DNA from: Phyto melanocephala
Lineage: Eukaryota; Arthropoda; Insecta; Diptera; Rhinophoridae
Length of the DNA: 64,000 bases
Reading direction: 5' to 3'
Assembly: GCA_941918925.1 (NCBI GenBank)
Contig: OW799233.1
Span: forward strand, 129,976,833 to 130,040,832
Below the pieces are notes generated by a model that saw only the letters and a list, made by a program, of their open reading frames with translations, made no database searches and had not been told where the DNA came from. Positions 16,404-51,494 of the stretch are shown piece after piece (the stretch's first letter is position 1; each line of letters opens with the position of its first letter). The position numbers and the translations under genes were made by a program.

Positions 16404-17222
16404 CTAGCCAAACCCGGCGCGCGTTGCTACGCCCCTTAATGAATTTGAAATGCATTCTGAATTTTAATTGAATATCAAGTGCAAAAACCTAAATATTATA
16501 ATTTTTTTTATGGGCGTGGCATTGCCCACTTTTCTAATCGCGAAATTGTAAAGTCATAACAGCTCAATATGTGTGCAAAGTTTCAGAAGAATCGGACCAG
16601 TGCAAGTACCTCAAAATTATAATTGTTTTTATGGGCGTGGCCCTGCCCACTTTTCTTTTCACGAAATTGTAAAGTCATAATAGCTCAATATGTGTGCAAA
16701 GTTTCAGAATAATCGGTCCAGTGCAAGTACCTCAAAATGATACCTATTTTTTATGGGCGTGGCACTGCCCACTTTTCTAATCACGAAATTATTTAGTCAT
16801 GCCAGCTCAATATGTGTGCAAAAATTCAGAAAATTCGGTCCAGTGCAAGTAGATAAAACTGATAACTAATTTTTTGTGGGCGTAGCCCCGCCCACTTTTT
16901 AATCACGAAATTATAAAGTCATGACAGCTTAATATGTGTGCAAAGTTTCAGAAAAATCGGTCCAGTGCAAGTACCTCTAAATTTAAACTTTTTTAGGGGC
17001 GTGGCCCCGCCCACTTTTCTTATCACAAAATTTTTTAGTCATGACAGCTCGATATGTGTGCAAAGTTTCAGAAAAATCGGTCAAGTGCAAGTAGCTAAAA
17101 CTGATAACTAATTTTTTATGGGCGTGGCCCCGCCCACTTTTTTCCACCCATAAACGCTGGTATGTGTACAACAACTTACCAAAGTTTGAGCCCGATCGGT
17201 TTTACAGTTTCGGAGTCTATAG

Positions 17223-20710: not shown

Positions 20711-21454
20711 TCTATATATATATAAAAGTGAAACTCTGTCTGTGTGTTAACTATAGACTCCGAAAATGTAAAACCGATCGGACTTAAACTTTGGCAAGTT
20801 GTTGTACACATTTCGGGGGTGTTTATGAATGGTAAAAAGTGGGCGGGGCCACCCCCATAAAAATTAGTTGTAATTTTTAGCTACTTGCACTTGACCGATT
20901 TTCTGAAACTTTGCACACATATTGAACTCTCATGACTGTATAATTTCGTGATAAAAAAAGTGGGCGGGGCCACACCCATAAAAAAGTTATAATTTTGAGG
21001 TATTTTGCACTGGACCAATTTTTCTGAAACTGTACACACATATTGAGCTGTTAGGACTTTACATTTTCGTGATTATAAAAGTGGGCAGTGCCACGCCCAT
21101 AAAAAAAAGTTATCATTTTCAGCTACTTGAACTTGACTGATTTTTTAAAAACTTTGCACACACATATTGAGCTCCCATGATTATACAATTTCGTGATTAG
21201 TAAAGAGGGCAGTGCCACGCCCATAAGAAATAAGTTATCATATTTAGCTACTTGCTCTTGACCGATTTTTGTGAAACTTTGCACACATTTTGAGTTATCA
21301 TGACTTTATATTTTCTTGATTAGAAAAGTGGGCAGTGCCACGCCCATTATAAAAAGTTATAATTTTTAGCTTTTTGCACTTGATATTCAATTTTTAATTA
21401 AGAATGGATTTTTATTCATTAAGGGGCGTAGCAACGCGTGCCGGGCTTTTCTAG
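20711..21454 (+). mobile_element. Non-autonomous Helitron, copy H2
   Basis: Begins TCTATATATATATAAAAGTG, ends GTGCCGGGCTTTTCTAG followed by T. The base before TC is T rather than the usual A, probably a later mutation. Contains five of the ~121-bp internal units (cores near 20838, 20958, 21077, 21208, 21326); lacks a long TG run. Confidence 0.82.
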
Positions 21455-24824: not shown

Positions 24825-26121
24825 AAGGGTGTCCCAACTAGAATGCAATTTTTAAATTTGGCGCCATTCGAAGTGTCATTGTTTGGCATTTGAACAATTG
24901 TTATTGTTTGCTAGTAGAAGGTACGAGGTTAATAAAAATGGAGCGCTACACGAATGAACAACGCATTTTCATTGTGGAATTGGTTTACCAAAATGGTGAA
25001 AGTTTTGCGGCTACAGTTCGCAAATTGCGATCAATTTGGGGTCACAATAATGCTCCAAAAGAGTCAACTGTAAAGAGATTAATAGATAAATTTGCCGAAA
25101 CTGGGTCTGTTAGTGATGTAAAGACAACAACGCGCCTTCGACCAGGTCGATCGACCGAAAATGTCGCAGCTGTACGTGATGATGTCGCTCAAACTCCATG
25201 CACCTCAATTCGACACCGAGCTCAGCAAATTGGTGTCTCCAAATCCACTATGCAGCGAATTTTGACGAAAGATTTGCATCTTCATGCATACAAACTTCAA
25301 TTGACTCAGGAACCAGCCAGCTGACCATGGACAGCGAAGGGAGTTCGTTAATTGGGTATTGGAGAGACAACATGAAAATGCTGATTTTGCCGATAAAATC
25401 ATCTTCAGTGACGAGGCCCATTTACATCTTGATGGCTTCGTCAATAGGCAGAATTGTCGCATTTGGGGTGAGGAAAATCCTCGAGTATTCACGAGAAGCA
25501 AATGCATCCTCAACGTGTCACTGTGTGGTGTGGTTTTTGGGCTGGAGGAATCATTGGACCTTTTTTATGAAAATGAGGCAGGTCAAGCGCAAACAGTCAA
25601 TGGTGTTCGGTATCTTGAAATGATAACCAGTTTTTTCTTGCCTAGAATTGAAGACATGAATGTGGAGGTCATGTGGTTTCAACAAGAAGGCGCCACATGT
25701 CATACAGCCAGAGAAACAATTCAATTGCTGCATCAGGCATTCCCGGTCGTGGTCTTTCGCGTTTTGGAGACCAGAATTGGCGGCCTAGATCGTGTGATTT
25801 AACACCTTTAGATTTTTTTCTTTGGGATTTTTTGAAGTCGATGGTTTACGCGAATAAGCCGACGACGACTCAAGCCTTAAAAGAGGAAATTGGACGCTGC
25901 ATTAATGAAATACCGCAGCATTTATGCAAAAAAGTCATTGAAAATTTCATTAAAAGATCGCGTGTGTGCAATCAAAGCCGCGGCGGCCATCTGCACGATA
26001 TATTGTTCCATACATAACCTCATTCTGTCTACTTTACGATATAATAAAGTTTCACGATTTTTTTTTAAATATATGTGTTTTATTTAAAATTTAAAAATTG
26101 CGTTCTAGTTGGGACACCCTT
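24825..26121 (+). mobile_element. Full-length mariner-like element (DD41D type)
   Basis: Inverted ends AAGGGTGTCCCAACTAGAAT and its right-end copy (ATTGCGTTCTAGTTGGGACACCCTT, one mismatch near position 20) bound 1297 bp, flanked by TA on both sides. The interior is a decayed transposase gene (see 24938-26017). The residual spacing of acidic residues points to the DD41D group, known as 'rosa' in Ceratitis. Confidence 0.85.
24938..26017 (+). pseudogene. Decayed mariner-like transposase, at least four frameshifts
   Basis: The N-terminal helix-turn-helix starts MERYTNEQRIFIVELVYQNG and runs to about residue 125, where a frameshift near 25310 ends the frame. The catalytic domain continues in shifting frames: ADKIIFSDEAHLHLDGF (first Asp kept), then after frameshifts near 25495 and 25560 the motif VMWFQQEGATCHTARET, in which the second catalytic Asp has become Glu. 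After a frameshift near 25740 come PRSCDLTPLDFFLWDFLKS and a C-terminus ending GGHLHDILFHT. In the parallel intact motif at 46969-47571 the second and third Asp are 41 residues apart. The frameshifts and the Asp-to-Glu change mean it cannot make active transposase. Confidence 0.85.
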
Positions 26122-30500: not shown

Positions 30501-30632
30501 CAGTCGAACTTTTCTATAGTGAACTTCTTTACAATGAAGCTATTTAATGTTAGTGATTTTCAACTCATAGTCAATTTCCATACAGCGAATTTTTCTTTTA
30601 CTTTCTTTACTTTCTTCTAATATGTCTATATT

Positions 30633-31110
30633 ATGGGAGAGAATATCAAGAGGTATTACAGACTTACTGATGACTGTAGTATGTTCCAAGCAGAGATACT
30701 GGCTATCTATAAGGCAACGAATCTCATTTTAGAACATATTCCAAGGGGTAAGGTATACGTGGACAGTCAGGCGGCTCTCAGGCCCTTAAAGGGACAAATG
30801 GAATTATCGGCAATGAAATTGCGACGAACTTGCGAGCAGTGGATTAGCACTGGTTTCTATTTTAGGCATATTAGATCGTGGGTATACAACAGGACTAATA
30901 TGGCGTGGAGGAACAGAAGGGACTGCAGAGTGTCAACGGCTTTATGGCCTAAGTTGAACTCAGCGGGCGCTACGTTACTTCTGGGTCTGGATAGGGTATG
31001 TCTGAGGGCTACTATTAGGGTTTTAACAGGACACTATCCAGTGGGAGCTAGGATTAGTAGATAGGATCGCGGTATGAAGAATAAGGAGCTAGAGCCTGTG
31101 GAACACATTG
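30633..31110 (+). pseudogene. Non-LTR retrotransposon RNase H/3' fragment
   Basis: The 143-codon frame has an RNase H-like piece (CSMFQAEILAIYKATNLI; VYVDSQAALRPL, with the catalytic Glu and Asp in the expected motifs), then a divergent middle, then LTGHYPVG as found before the terminal Cys/His cluster of insect LINE ORF2 proteins. After its stop, another frame reads EPVEHIVCRCPRLQNH, the remains of the zinc cluster. It is a 5'-truncated, frameshifted copy, and it differs from the fragment at 15060-15471. Confidence 0.75.
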
Positions 31111-31507: not shown

Positions 31508-32105
31508 ATTATCACATTGAACTTATAGCCTAAAAAATTTAAAATTTAAATATAATACAAATAGAAAGTTCAAAATGTAATATTAAAAAAAAGTACAACA
31601 AAAAAACACTTGGCTTAGTGTAAAATGTACATTGTTAGAACTAATACCATCTTGTCTAAAGCATGTGACATATATAATGCAACTGTATAATTGCAAAAAA
31701 TTGCTTTAGCGACATCTTAAGCTAAAGGTAAACATTAAAAAAACTTGTGATACTGACGTGCACAAAATAATATGGGAAAAACAGATGTTGACAAATTTCG
31801 TACTAACTCAACTATAAGTATATGAAATATCATGACAAATAAAGGACAAATAATTCTATGTTTCAATTTTTAATACAATACTGAGTTAAATAGTTAATAT
31901 TTACACAAAAAACCGGTAGTTCTGATCAAAAGAGTGCTGATGATGAAACCGTACCAGGTTTCGAAAATGCATTCCACTCAGCTTGTATCGGATGACTAAC
32001 TTTGCCTTGATATTCTGTCATTATCATATTTAACTTACAAAAAACTTAAAATTGAAATATAATACAAATAGAAAGTTCAAAATGTAATATTGAAAAGAAG
32101 TAATA
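31508..32105 (+). repeat. Hammerhead-bearing repeat, copy A (about 1.2 units)
   Basis: The block AATATAATACAAATAGAAAG and what follows occurs at both ends (about 31550 and 32058), a period of 508 bp, with the hammerhead motif between them. The interior matches the copies at 37045-37450 and 51307-51482, but has about 130 bp ('cgacatcttaagc...aaaggac') that copy B lacks. No reading frame. The layout is that of a tandem-unit retrozyme or a Penelope-type terminal repeat. It sits inside the pogo-like element. Both outer limits are approximate. Confidence 0.65.
31922..31991 (+). ncRNA. Hammerhead ribozyme motif, type I, copy A
   Basis: The order of parts fits a type I hammerhead. Distal stem I is CTGAT (31922-31926) with ATCGG (31987-31991). 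Proximal stem I is GAGTG (31932-31936) with CACTC (31975-31979). The core is CTGATGA (31937-31943) and then one extra T. Stem II is GAAACC (31945-31950) with GGTTTC (31957-31962). Then come GAA and a minimal stem III AA-TGCA-TT (31966-31973). The predicted cleavage is after C31974. Loop II is GTACCA. Activity has not been tested; the extra base between A9 and stem II departs from consensus. Confidence 0.65.
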
Positions 32106-36818: not shown

Positions 36819-37044
36819 GTTTGACAATCTGGTCTAAAACAAACTGTTTCGAACCTTATCTTTTAAATTTAAGCTGTGCACGTGTTAAAGTGAAATTTAA
36901 ATGAGAAAAAATCGTTTAAAAAAATAAAAAATTTTAAATGTTTGTAAAAATGGTAAAAATTAATATTTGCGAAATTTCAGTTAAGTGTAGAATACCAAAA
37001 TCATCAATATGTACATTTATAAAAATGCTAGTAAAAATTTTTCC

Positions 37045-37450
37045 TATATTTTAAATTTTTAAATTTTAGGCTATAAGTTCAATGTGATAACGACAAGAAT
37101 ATTTAAGGAAAAATTAGTCATCCGATACTAGCTGAGTGGAATGCATTTTCGAAACCAGCTACGGTTTCATCATCAGCACTCTTTTGATCAGAACTACAGG
37201 TGTTGTATGTAAATATCAACTATTTAACTCAGTAATGTATTGAAAATTGAAATAAAGAATTATTTGTTCTAAAGCAATTTTTTGCAATTATGCAGTTGTG
37301 TTATATATATGTCACATGCTTTAAACAAGATGGTATTAGTTTTAACAATGTTCATTTTACACCATGCCAATGTGTTTTTTTTTTGTATTTTAATTTTTAT
37401 GAACTTTTTCATTTTGTATTATATTTTAAATTTTTAAATTTTAGGCTATA
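37045..37450 (-). repeat. Hammerhead-bearing repeat, copy B (about 1.1 units)
   Basis: The segment ATTTTAAATTTTTAAATTTT + AGGCTATA occurs at both ends (near 37048 and 37423), a period of 375 bp. Read on the minus strand the unit contains 'catgtgacatatat', 'gcaaaaaattgctttag', 'gagttaaatagttgatattt', the hammerhead and 'ttgaacttatagcct'. It lacks about 130 bp present in copy A. Non-coding. Confidence 0.65.
37122..37191 (-). ncRNA. Hammerhead ribozyme motif, type I, copy B
   Basis: On the minus strand: distal stem I CTGAT (37187-37191) with ATCGG (37122-37126); proximal stem I GAGTG (37177-37181) with CACTC (37134-37138); core CTGATGA (37170-37176); an extra T; stem II GAAACC/GGTTTC with loop GTAGCT; GAA; stem III AA-TGCA-TT; cleavage expected between 37139 and 37138. 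Over these 70 bases it is identical to copy C. Loop II (TAGCT) is complementary to the stem I internal loop (AGCTA), a possible kissing contact. Confidence 0.7.
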
Positions 37451-37710
37451 TATATATTTCCTATTTATTCTCGACAATTCCACTAGCCACTCCCCTTAGA
37501 AACTATTAATAAAAACTACAAGAGATATGATATGGGTGATATGCAGACCTCATCATATTACACCATTTATCCAATGCGGTAATATTTCATATTGTGTCAT
37601 ATAACAAAGCGGTTATTGTTTTTTTTTTTTTGAATTCTTAAAATTAAAAATGTGTTACAATTATAAATTAATACTTATTGGAACTTTATTTAAATTAAAA
37701 AAATTAAATT

Positions 37711-46756: not shown

Positions 46757-47681
46757 AAGGGTTTTTAAACAGGCACGCTATAAAAGTATACCGATAGGAA
46801 CAGCAAACGACGCCATATTTTTTGCCGCTCTTTTGACATTTCTCTCCAGTAAGGTTTGCCATTTCATGATGGATAGATATACGAGCCAACAACGAGTCGA
46901 AATTATTAAAATTTACTACCGAAATTCGGAATCAGAGGCCTCAACGTCAAGAGCGCTACGTCCAATTTATGGTTATTTCTGATTTCTGGCTGAATGACTT
47001 CGTCAATAATCAAAATATGCGTTATTGGTCAGACAGCAATCGACACGTACTCCATGAGTCATCATTGCATCCCGAAAAAATTACGGTTTGGTGCGGTTTA
47101 TGGGCCGGCGGCGTCATTGGGCCGTACTTCTTACGTGATGAACAAGACCGGCACGTTACTGTGAATGGGAATCGTGACCGTTTAATGATAACAGAATATT
47201 TTTGGCACCAATTGGATGATATGGACTTGGAGGACATGTGGTTCCAACAGGATGGCGCCACAAGCCACACAGCGAATGTCACAATCAATTTATTGGAAAC
47301 CAAGCTTAGAGAACGTGTTATTTCACGAAATGGTCCAGTCGATTGGCCGCCTCGGTCGTGCGATTTGACGCCGTTAGACTATTTCCTGTGGGGCAACGTC
47401 AAGTCTATGGTCTATTCCAACAAGCCAGCGACGATTGATGAACTTTGTACGAATATCGAACGTGCAATTATGGCCCGATTTATGCTGGAAAGCCGGCGAA
47501 AATTGGGTTCAGCGTCTGCACTTCTGCAAGCGTACCCGTGGTGGCCATGCAAAAGAAATCGAGTTCCATAAATAATGGCATCGAACGTACTTTCACAGGA
47601 ATAAAGAATTTCATTTATATCCAAAACCGTTTTTGTTTTATTTAAAGAAAACTTTTGTAGTGCTCTTATTGAAAAACCCTT
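46757..47681 (+). mobile_element. Internally deleted mariner-like element (DD41D)
   Basis: Inverted ends AAGGGTTTTTAAACAGGCAC and, at the right, AAGGGTTTTTCAATAAGAGC on the opposite strand, with TA on both sides (46755-46756, 47682-47683). The total of 925 bp is shorter than the 1.3-kb full element because the N-terminal domain is fused directly to the catalytic domain. Confidence 0.85.
46869..47571 (+). pseudogene. DD41D mariner-like transposase, N-terminal part deleted
   Basis: The start MDRYTSQQRVEIIKIYYRNS leads into ALRPIYG, after which a deletion near 46965 joins it out of frame to the catalytic domain. From 46969 an unbroken 200-codon frame carries FWLNDFVNNQNMRYWSDSNR, ITVWCGLWAGGVIGPYF, DMWFQQDGATSHTA and PRSCDLTPLDYFLWG. 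Counting gives 41 residues between the Asp of QQDGA and the Asp of TPLDYF. The tail after about residue 165 no longer matches the family, indicating a late frameshift. It is much better preserved than the other copies but cannot be full-length. Confidence 0.85.
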
Positions 47682-49560: not shown

Positions 49561-50443
49561 TCTATATATATAAAAGTGAAACTCTGTGTGTGTGTATGTG
49601 TGTGTGTGTGTGTTAGCTATAGACTCCGAAACTGTAAAACCGATCGGGCTCAAACTTTGGTAAGTTGTTGTACATATACCAGGAAGTGTTTATGGGTGAA
49701 AAAAAGTGGACGGGGCCACGCCCATAAAAAATTAGTTATCTGTTTTAGCTACTTGCACTTGACCGATTTTTCTGAAACTTTGCACACATATCGAGCTGTT
49801 ATGACTAAGCAATTTCGTGATAAGAAATGTGGGCGGGGCCACGCCCCTAAAAAAGTTTTAATTTTGAGGTACTTGCACTGGACCGATTTTTTTGAAACTT
49901 TGCACACATATTGAGCTGCCATGACTTTATAATTTCGTGATTAAAAAAGTGGGCAGGGCCACGCCCATAAAAAAAAGTTATAGTTTTGACGTACTTGCAC
50001 TGGACCGATTTTTCTGAAACTTTAAAAACATACTGACATGTCATGACTTAATAATTTCGTGATAACAAAAGTGGGCAGGGCCACGCCCATAAGAAAAACA
50101 GTTATAATTTTGAGGTATTTGAACTTCACCGATTTTTCTGAAACTTTGGATTCATATTGTGCTGTCATGACTATATACTTTCGTGATTAGAAAAGTGGGC
50201 ACGGCCACGCCCATAAAAAAAAAGTTATAATTTTGAGGTACTTGCACTAGACCGATTTTTCTGAAACTTTGCACACATATTGAGCTGTCACGACTATACA
50301 GTTTAGTGACTAGAAAAGTGGGCAGTGCCACGCCCATTAAAAAAAGTTATCATTTTTAGCTTTTTGCACTTGATATTCAATTTAAGATCAGAATACATTT
50401 TTAATCAATAGGGGGCGTAGCAACGCGCGCCGGGCTTTTCTAG
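49561..50443 (+). mobile_element. Non-autonomous Helitron, copy H3 (first of a tandem pair)
   Basis: A (49560) precedes TCTATATATATAAAAGTG; after a TG microsatellite come six ~121-bp units (cores near 49708, 49830, 49948, 50071, 50197, 50320). It ends CGCGCGCCGGGCTTTTCTAG. Immediately after CTAG the next copy begins. Confidence 0.85.
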
Positions 50444-51060
50444 TATATATATAAAAGTAAAACTCTGTGTGTGTGTGTGTGTGTGTTAGCTATAGACTCC
50501 GAAACTGTAAAACCGATCGGACTCAAACTTTGGCAAGTTGTTGTACACATACCAGGGAGTGTTTATGGGTGGAAAAAAGTGGGCGGGGCCACGCCCATAA
50601 AAATTAGTTATCAGTTTTAGCTACTTTCTCTTGACCGAGTTTTCTGAAACTTTGCACACATATCGAGCTGTCATGACTAAATAATTTTGTAATAAAAAAA
50701 GTGGGCGGGGCCACGCCCCTAAAAAAGTTTTAATTTTGAGGTACTTGCACTGGACCGATTATTCTGAAACTTTGCACACATATTGAGCTGTTATGACTTT
50801 ACAATTTCGTGATTAGAAAAGTGGGCAGGGCCACGCCCATAAAAACAATTATAATTTTGGGGTACTTGCACTGGTCCGATTCTTCTGAAACTTTGCACAC
50901 ATATTGAGTTGTCATGACTATACAATTTCTTGATGAGAAAAGTGGGCAGTGCCACGCCCATTAAACATTTTTTTAGCTTTTTGCACTTGATATTCAATTT
51001 AAATTCAGGAAGCATTTTGATTCATTAAGGGGCGTAGCAACGCGCGCCGGGTTCGGCTAG
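50444..51060 (+). mobile_element. Non-autonomous Helitron, copy H4 (second of a tandem pair)
   Basis: Starts TATATATATAAAAGTAAAAC directly at the 3' end of H3; the initial TC is either lost or shared with the TCTAG of H3. It has a TG microsatellite, four internal units and an end CGCGCGCCGGGTTCGGCTAG followed by T. Its terminus (TTCGGCTAG) is closer to H1 (TTTGGCTAG) than to H3 (CTTTTCTAG), so it is not a simple duplicate of H3. Confidence 0.82.
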
Positions 51061-51306
51061 TTATTTATAAAAGTTAACAACCCATGTGAAATAAAAAATT
51101 TACTCGTATTTTGTTTTCGTTTCAATAACAAAACAAATGAAACATTTTCACTCAAAGCGATCGCTTGGATTCTAAAAGCAGAACATATTTCTACTATAAA
51201 CGGTATGAATACAAACTTAAAATTAAAATTTAAATCTTCATTCTTACACAAAAACGCACGAAATACATAATGATTCATCTTGAAAATTAATAACAATAAC
51301 TGTAAT

Positions 51307-51482
51307 AGTTGATATTTACATACAACACCTGTAGTTCTGATCAAAAGAGTGCTGATGATGAAACCGTAGCTGGTTTCGAAAATGCATTCCACTCAGCTAG
51401 TATCGGATGACTAATTTTTCCTTAAATATTCTTGTCGTTATCACATTGAACTTATAGCCTATAATTTAAAAATTTAAAATAT
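51307..51482 (+). repeat. Hammerhead-bearing repeat, copy C, with 12-bp target duplication
   Basis: The 176-bp unit fragment (AGTTGATATTTACATACAAC ... TTTAAAATAT) is flanked by exact copies of AATAACTGTAAT (51295-51306 and 51483-51494). A variable-length duplication like this is typical of target-primed reverse transcription, as in LINE or Penelope-like elements. The copy carries the hammerhead and the block 'cacattgaacttatagcct' shared with copies A and B. Confidence 0.7.
51337..51406 (+). ncRNA. Hammerhead ribozyme motif, type I, copy C
   Basis: Distal stem I is CTGAT (51337-51341) with ATCGG (51402-51406). Proximal stem I is GAGTG (51347-51351) with CACTC (51390-51394). The core is CTGATGA (51352-51358), then an extra T. 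Stem II is GAAACC (51360-51365) with GGTTTC (51372-51377), loop GTAGCT. Then GAA and stem III AA-TGCA-TT (51381-51388), with predicted cleavage after C51389. All invariant core bases are present apart from the insertion. Confidence 0.7.
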
Positions 51483-51494
51483 AATAACTGTAAT

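Follow-up and report, generated by a model that had tools for sequence, protein, structure and literature searches.

Non-LTR retrozymes of animals (LTR, long terminal repeat), which have been reported from insects, are described as low-GC tandem repeats (GC <50%) that have no coding region, carry a type I hammerhead ribozyme with a 2-bp helix III closed by a tetraloop, and lie within target duplications of >4 bp (PMC7229834). Published units measure 170-400 nt (150-450 bp). According to a 2020 review, animal retrozymes have no conserved motif that would name their autonomous mover, and Penelope-like elements are the likely candidates (PMC7761336), so that Penelope-like elements have already been proposed for this role, there and elsewhere (PMC8969392, PMC11722881). 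The endonuclease-type Penelope-like elements are known as partial tandems with a head-to-head inverted copy, a short target duplication, an optional 30-40 nt tail on one end and a minimal type I hammerhead. One account gives an inverted pseudo-LTR (pLTR), a 9-bp duplication and a 31-bp tail on one inverted pLTR, the head-to-head arrangement being the most frequent (PMC3846280); a Penelope-like protein assayed in vitro cleaves AT-rich DNA on both strands and extends both, starting inside the RNA at two adjacent sites and leaving an optional 30-40 bp tail (PMC11167929). Insect hammerhead repeats are also on record from Aedes aegypti and Dolichopoda crickets (PMC3088659, PMC2808323), likened here by description, and for the Aedes hammerhead a palindromic loop III and a dimeric form have been proposed (PMC3088659). 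Here we describe an interspersed repeat of the rhinophorid fly Phyto melanocephala, present as three copies (A, B and C) in a 64-kb stretch of contig OW799233.1 (positions 129,976,833 to 130,040,832; the window), which is AT-rich (30% GC) and lies on contig 1 of the 740-Mb genome (9 contigs). Each copy holds a type I hammerhead, and the repeat is probably a non-autonomous, non-coding non-LTR retrozyme, with Penelope machinery acting in trans to copy its RNA at both ends of a DNA break.

The hammerhead of copy A is made up of the following parts, given with the evidence for each.

31921-31992, plus strand: type I hammerhead of copy A, from outer stem I to outer stem I (sequence, constrained fold, descriptor scan)
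31921-31926, plus strand: outer stem I 5' side, TCTGAT, with its partner ATCGGA at 31987-31992 (constrained fold, copy alignment)
31932-31936, plus strand: inner stem I 5' side, GAGTG, with its partner CACTC at 31975-31979 (constrained fold; copy alignment, with 92.3% of cells paired)
31937-31943, plus strand: catalytic core CTGATGA, C3 to A9 (sequence)
31944, plus strand: extra T, placed after A9 and before stem II (a pattern that left the position free showed T there in 98 of the 100 places listed)
31945-31962, plus strand: 6-bp stem II GAAACC/GGTTTC with loop GTACCA, which is GTAGCT in most copies seen (fold, copy comparison; variants GAAATC/GATTTC and GAAATC/GGTTTC)
31963-31974, plus strand: GAA, minimal stem III AA/TT with a TGCA loop (palindrome AATGCATT), and C17 (sequence, constrained fold)
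31980-31986, plus strand: stem I internal loop 3' side, AGCTTGT (AGCTAGT in copies B and C), the partner of loop II in most copies seen (comparison of A with B, copy alignment)

Read in order, the parts are TCTGAT, CAAAA, GAGTG, CTGATGA, T, GAAACC, GTACCA, GGTTTC, GAA, AA, TGCA, TT, C, CACTC, AGCTTGT and ATCGGA. That is, everything that an earlier note on this DNA had picked out from the letters is present at 31921-31992 and in the right order: the core CUGANGA...GAA...NUH, an open stem I and closed stems II and III, with one extra base. As a structure, 31921-31992 is confirmed as a type I hammerhead. The cut position given in that note was likewise sound, since C31974 precedes CACTC; the predicted ribozyme cut in copy A falls between C31974 and C31975 and would leave a 5' end at C31975, and in copies B and C the predicted cut leaves the 5' end at the C after GAAAATGCATTC. 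The description of the parts thus stood, apart from two things that it had overlooked, namely, the extra T at 31944 and the loss in copy A of the pairing between loop I and loop II. The extra T is a real deviation from the consensus, because without an extra base stem II cannot adjoin both the core and GAA; insertions in the core of natural hammerheads have been described (PMC3088659).

The three copies and their flanks are laid out in the window as follows.

31509-32102, plus strand: probable retrozyme copy A, slightly over one lap of the unit; the start of the second lap (32039-32102) repeats the 5' end (31532-31595)
37048-37456, minus strand: probable retrozyme copy B, with a unit of 375 bp and ~1.1 laps (sequence comparison)
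37121-37192, minus strand: hammerhead of copy B, loop-loop pairing possible (descriptor scan, fold)
37040-37047, minus strand: possible target duplication of 8 bp, ATAGGAAA, adjoining the 3' end of copy B, the other copy at 37457-37464 (flank comparison)
51307-51482, plus strand: probable retrozyme copy C, 5'-truncated, 99.4% identical to copy B over 180 bp
51336-51407, plus strand: hammerhead of copy C (descriptor scan, fold)
51295-51306, plus strand: 12-bp target-site duplication AATAACTGTAAT of copy C, left (flank comparison)
51483-51494, plus strand: 12-bp target-site duplication AATAACTGTAAT of copy C, right (flank comparison)

Copies A and B both begin a second lap, with the same sequence at either end. 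The flanks of copy A were examined as well, and no target duplication was found there. Copy A is about 86% like copy B or C, and ~133 bp of it (window 31710-31842), shared with a 510-bp unit found elsewhere in the genome, are missing in copy B. Divergence between A and B is concentrated outside the ribozyme: 3 of 76 sites differ within the hammerhead and 64 of 347 in the remainder (Fisher p 0.0008), which takes in AT-rich stretches hard to align. The three hammerhead changes (31954 and 31956 in loop II, 31984 in the stem I internal loop) spare the core and the stems, and each of them breaks in copy A one of the five loop-loop pairs (UAGCU with AGCUA). This 5-bp pairing of loop I with loop II is possible in copies B and C and in most other copies seen. 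Because copy A is divergent and its loop-loop contact is broken, it is ill-suited for a cleavage assay, for which copy B or C would be better.

In its general make-up the repeat resembles the published retrozymes: the hammerhead type, the 2-bp helix III with its tetraloop, the tandem units, the target duplications and the low GC (26.4% in the copy B unit) are all shared (PMC7229834). No open reading frame (ORF) of at least 110 aa is listed inside copies A and B, and the repeat has neither reverse transcriptase nor endonuclease; Penelope-like elements encode both, for which a unit of ~510 bp is too short. An antisense ORF (51057-51392) overlaps part of copy C.

A relaxed descriptor, which asked for the core, GAAA and U-H, for 4 or more pairs in each of stems I and II and 2 or more in stem III, and which tolerated one extra base, matched nothing but copies A, B and C on the two strands of the window. 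On 210 Mb of Markov sequence strands the same descriptor gave 13 matches, corresponding to ~0.008 expected in the window (0.128 Mb of strands), and 2 of the 13 reach the level of copy A (stem II with 6 pairs or more, stem I with 5 or more), or ~0.001 expected per window. The claim that so many joint pairings are unlikely by chance is borne out by these values, although copies A, B and C are one family and therefore amount to one unlikely event, not three. A C/D-box small nucleolar RNA (snoRNA) or a chance fold in place of a hammerhead was rejected and is extremely improbable. The only Rfam families to match are C/D snoRNA models, and ATGATGA resembles a C box, but the matches are weak, at 7-20 bits for cut-offs of 37-80 (the best, 19.8 bits, against a cut-off of 44), no CTGA D box was seen at a suitable downstream distance in copies B and C, the expectation per window is the ~0.008 just given, and pairing is kept across subfamilies. 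A tRNA-derived element was also considered and rejected, no tRNA being detected.

The family is large. A 120-bp query returned 1341 candidates from the fly's own genome, 40 of which were scored, and exact patterns matched the genome 1653 times with stem II fixed and 5872 times with core and stem III fixed and stem II free, the reversed control giving 0 in both cases. Exact-pattern scans of viral contig and genome contig collections gave 0 matches each. Among 100 listed places stem II was GAAATC/GATTTC in 40, GAAACC/GGTTTC in 21 and GAAATC/GGTTTC in 17 (78 of 100 in total); one stem II pair thus goes from C-G to U-A with a U-G step in between.

Pairing was followed in two alignments. The smaller (A3) has 27 rows, four rearranged ones (the L034 minus copy, L002:1752, L008:1756 and L049:1486) of 31 distinct hammerheads having been left out; the larger (A4) has 47 rows (44 distinct), its 20 added rows chosen for variety, not at random, from the first 100 listed places, and two of its rows (L088 and L089) are misaligned by one column, which counts against the structure. 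The motifs that yielded the 27 rows fixed the core together with the 5' side of stem II, and the pattern that yielded the 20 fixed the core and stem III, so the evidence for pairing in the core, stem II and stem III is partly circular, and identity of the core among copies is no evidence at all, whereas stem I and the loops were free to vary. In A4, 91.7% of 1052 cells pair, against 20.5-41.9% when the partners are slid by 1-3 columns, and in the smaller set 96.4% against 21.2-42.7%. By element, the A4 cells are paired in 86.2% of cases for outer stem I, 92.3% for inner stem I and 90.5% for the loop-loop helix. The outermost stem I pair takes the forms UA, UG, AU, CG and GU and fails to form in 12 of 43 cells; double changes occur at 5 pairs, chiefly this outermost pair and the stem II pair that runs CG/UG/UA. 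When columns were shuffled, 7 of 500 shuffles equalled the paired percentage. In two opposite-strand copies (L002 1754-1827 and L008 1758-1831) the sequence shifts abruptly just beyond CACTCA, the 3' side of inner stem I.

Several results weigh against reading the repeat as a retrozyme with a working ribozyme. The double changes are no more frequent than in the controls: slid partners give 4-8 pairs with such changes, as many as the true 5, and 163 of 500 column shuffles equal their number, column shuffling being the less discriminating because most changes are one-sided. The check that the earlier note had proposed, a score from the Rfam hammerhead models, turned out negative, with no hammerhead match in the whole window at the gathering score and, close to copies A and C, none with an E value of 10 or below. 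An Rfam score is not a defining property of the hammerhead fold, and we suspect that the window copies are missed perhaps through the combined cost of the extra core base and the 2-bp stem III; a genome-wide search with the Rfam Hammerhead_1 model gave nothing and is uninformative, since none of 14 controls registered either. In the minimum-free-energy fold, part of the core is paired instead of stem III, and the hammerhead state is computed to be ~7.5-10 kcal/mol less stable. A circle of the B type (one unit checked) is folded as well by 53 of 100 shuffles, and is thus not unusually self-paired; in this, as in the extra nucleotide after A9, the repeat differs from the published retrozymes (PMC7229834). 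Their units are also shorter than the ~500-560 bp found here, the deleted B unit (375 bp) excepted.

These findings bear on whether the hammerhead is inactive owing to its extra base, its conservation reflecting recent copying from one master. The near-constant T (98 of the 100 listed places), the absence of an Rfam match at the thresholds given and the unfavourable computed fold would all suit that explanation. We nevertheless consider it unlikely, on three grounds: 1) stem I stays paired, with compensatory changes, in subfamilies whose identity over the aligned stretch of the unit is only 70-90%, 2) the resident Penelope-like composites described below carry one extra base at the same position, and 3) a viroid ribozyme reportedly has an extra core nucleotide, at a position equal to that of the T at 31944.

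Units of ~500-560 bp, each with one hammerhead, make up tandem arrays; the unit of a young array is 510 nt, and multi-unit arrays are 99-100% alike. Among the places listed, same-strand neighbours are spaced 499-583 bp apart (with exceptions at 157 and 380), the longest run having 7 units. Copies begin at many places owing to 5' truncation; their 3' ends fall into two clusters, ~102 and ~137 nt beyond the predicted cut. Counted by the unit position of the 3' end, 45 copies divide into 19 at 105 or less, 6 at 106-127 and 20 at 128 or more, a count that takes in only copies running through the predicted cut, a class favoured by the queries. One copy (L058, ~2971) stops one base before the predicted cut, as if copied from cleaved RNA. 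An extended arrangement was seen at C1:4110285-4116207 (G000), where seven minus-strand units are followed by five plus-strand units at a spacing of ~544-549 bp.

In the two lists of 100 places, every pair of opposite-strand neighbours no more than 1500 bp apart is head-to-head, 11 being (-,+) and 0 (+,-). We examined 13 such composites and scored 11. In 10 of the 11 scored composites the outer ends share 13-17 bp, as against 3 of 110 mismatched end pairs, where the shared letters include chance extensions and one composite (L054) is low-complexity. One end is 31-55 nt longer than the other in those 10. Such a composite is best read as one insertion that has an element 3' end on either outer side, each from a different start site. 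Three of the 13 gave no clear result, which detracts from this reading: L061/62 has no clear duplication, and L050 and L058 were looked at and left unscored. Template switching or self-priming in the course of a single Penelope-type reaction, in place of priming from two ends, could give the same structures, and self-priming on the antisense template is how PMC3846280 explains palindromic junctions. This course appears somewhat doubtful to us, given that both outer ends are element 3' ends at two start sites inside one duplication and that in vitro a Penelope-like protein is able to cleave both strands and to extend both (PMC11167929).

Long interspersed nuclear elements (LINEs) offer another way to move the repeat, as an ordinary short interspersed or satellite-like element whose hammerhead is a relic without a role. 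Interspersed, 5'-truncated copies with short duplications fit LINE-type insertion, and a putative remnant of a LINE RNase H (30621-31064; no Pfam match) lies upstream of copy A. The stems are kept, however, while loops and flanks vary. LINEs are not known to have two internal start sites, head-to-head composites with a short and a tailed end, or tandem copies of several laps. A LINE origin is quite improbable.

Penelope-like genes are resident in the same genome. They were sought with P0109, a protein of Tenebrio molitor that its source names as uncharacterised and that we take to be Penelope-like because a Penelope consensus sequence retrieved it. The search gave 1506 candidates, 68 of which were scored, at 32-35% identity, 61 of the 68 without an internal stop. 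Like the repeat, Penelope-like neighbours within 15 kb are head-to-head among the matches listed (9 (-,+) and 0 (+,-)); tandem elements are spaced ~3.05-3.1 kb apart, about six times the retrozyme unit. A search of the genome for the GIY-YIG domain gave one match, which from its sequence we presume to be the host gene SLX1; the domain is a poor probe, its Pfam label standing on 11 of 120 listed Penelope-like proteins.

Both Penelope-like composites that we examined carry minimal hammerheads, with CTGATGA or CTGAAGA followed by one extra base, a stem II of 5-6 bp and GAAA. In the first, the hammerhead lies in the centre and consists of CTGAAGA, an extra A, stem II of 6 bp, GAAATATC and stem I of 4 bp. 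The second has none in its centre and one in each outer arm, made up of CTGATGA, an extra T, stem II of 5 bp, GAAATATT and a very short stem I. In each, the extra base stands at the same position as the T of the retrozyme. These two composites do not support the idea that the repeat is part of a Penelope-like element's own terminal repeat. Elsewhere, a retrozyme copy (L016 1501-1620; C1:93714588-93714707) lies between head-to-head Penelope-like matches (C1:93710995, minus, and 93718644, plus).

The earlier note had placed the family, by inference, among the type I hammerhead repeats of the Penelope and retrozyme kind. This placement is supported by the thousands of matches, the tandem units and the kept pairing, with some compensatory changes in stems I and II, and, on the Penelope side, by the Penelope-like insertion ends, the resident Penelope-like genes and the related hammerheads in two composites. 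The resident Penelope-like elements are the putative movers of the retrozyme.

In the mechanism that we propose, retrozyme transcripts would carry one type I hammerhead per unit, cutting at the predicted site to give unit-length RNA, which may be joined into a circle. A resident Penelope-type reverse transcriptase, acting in trans, would copy this RNA at a staggered break in AT-rich DNA. Copying would start within the RNA, at either of two sites that are separated by ~35 nt and lie 95-140 nt past the cut, and would often be primed from both DNA ends. Tandem arrays would result where the enzyme goes round a circle more than once or copies a multimeric transcript, and copying from both ends would yield the head-to-head composites, with one end short and the other tailed, inside one target-site duplication. 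That Penelope-type enzymes copy a circular, ribozyme-made RNA, each end of the break from a different internal site, so as to leave one short and one tailed end and head-to-head arrays, is a narrower claim, for and against which we see the balance as even. If it is true, the hammerheads kept in Penelope-like elements serve, or once served, in making circles, and the retrozyme is a stripped-down rider on their machinery.

For insertions that pass through the predicted cut site the RNA must have been uncut or rejoined; uncut multimers would serve too. The Penelope machinery could accordingly move the repeat from uncut multimeric transcripts, the hammerhead cut and circles playing no part in insertion, and we give this a serious chance, if one somewhat short of even. 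Copies that run through the cut site, a kind that our queries favour, are equally explained by uncut RNA, and RNA with a dead hammerhead inserted as well in the published system, where no RNA reads were reported to begin or end at the cut (PMC11167929), so that a needed cut or circle becomes less likely. Arrays of several units that are 99-100% alike, and a ribozyme that stays paired across subfamilies, suggest on the contrary a use for the cut. Further points tell against the Penelope mechanism as we propose it. In that system the start site showed no difference from one strand to the other (PMC11167929). For Penelope families, PMC3846280 reports no cross-mobilisation, with one case in trans. 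In the genome itself, comparison of the retrozyme with the resident elements found only AT-rich stretches alike (best E 2.6e-8 at 61%), and the second Penelope-like composite has a stem I of only ~3 bp, which a stricter descriptor missed.

The retrozyme insertions bear the end signature of Penelope-like elements, in a genome with Penelope-like genes that have long open frames. We found no report of the tail together with the head-to-head signature on retrozymes, in a literature coverage that was limited, so that such reports may exist. The repeat also adds a hammerhead family with thousands of genomic matches whose copies in the window escape the Rfam models.

Two broken frames of the window, at 24842-25802 and 46870-47571, read like transposases; among ten window ORFs compared with Pfam, the first of these frames gave DUF4817 and the other nine gave nothing, the 46870-47571 frame having no Pfam match. 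Directly upstream of copy A, a 147-aa frame (30621-31064) reads like the RNase H end of a LINE, with no Pfam match. Arrays of a 121-122 bp repeat (GGGCGTGGC...GCCCAC) occur in both orientations, at 16478-17141, 20834-21383, 49702-50373 and 50573-50965, and an array similar to this repeat lies within one arm of a Penelope-like composite (L094, ~930-1620), the other arm being without it.
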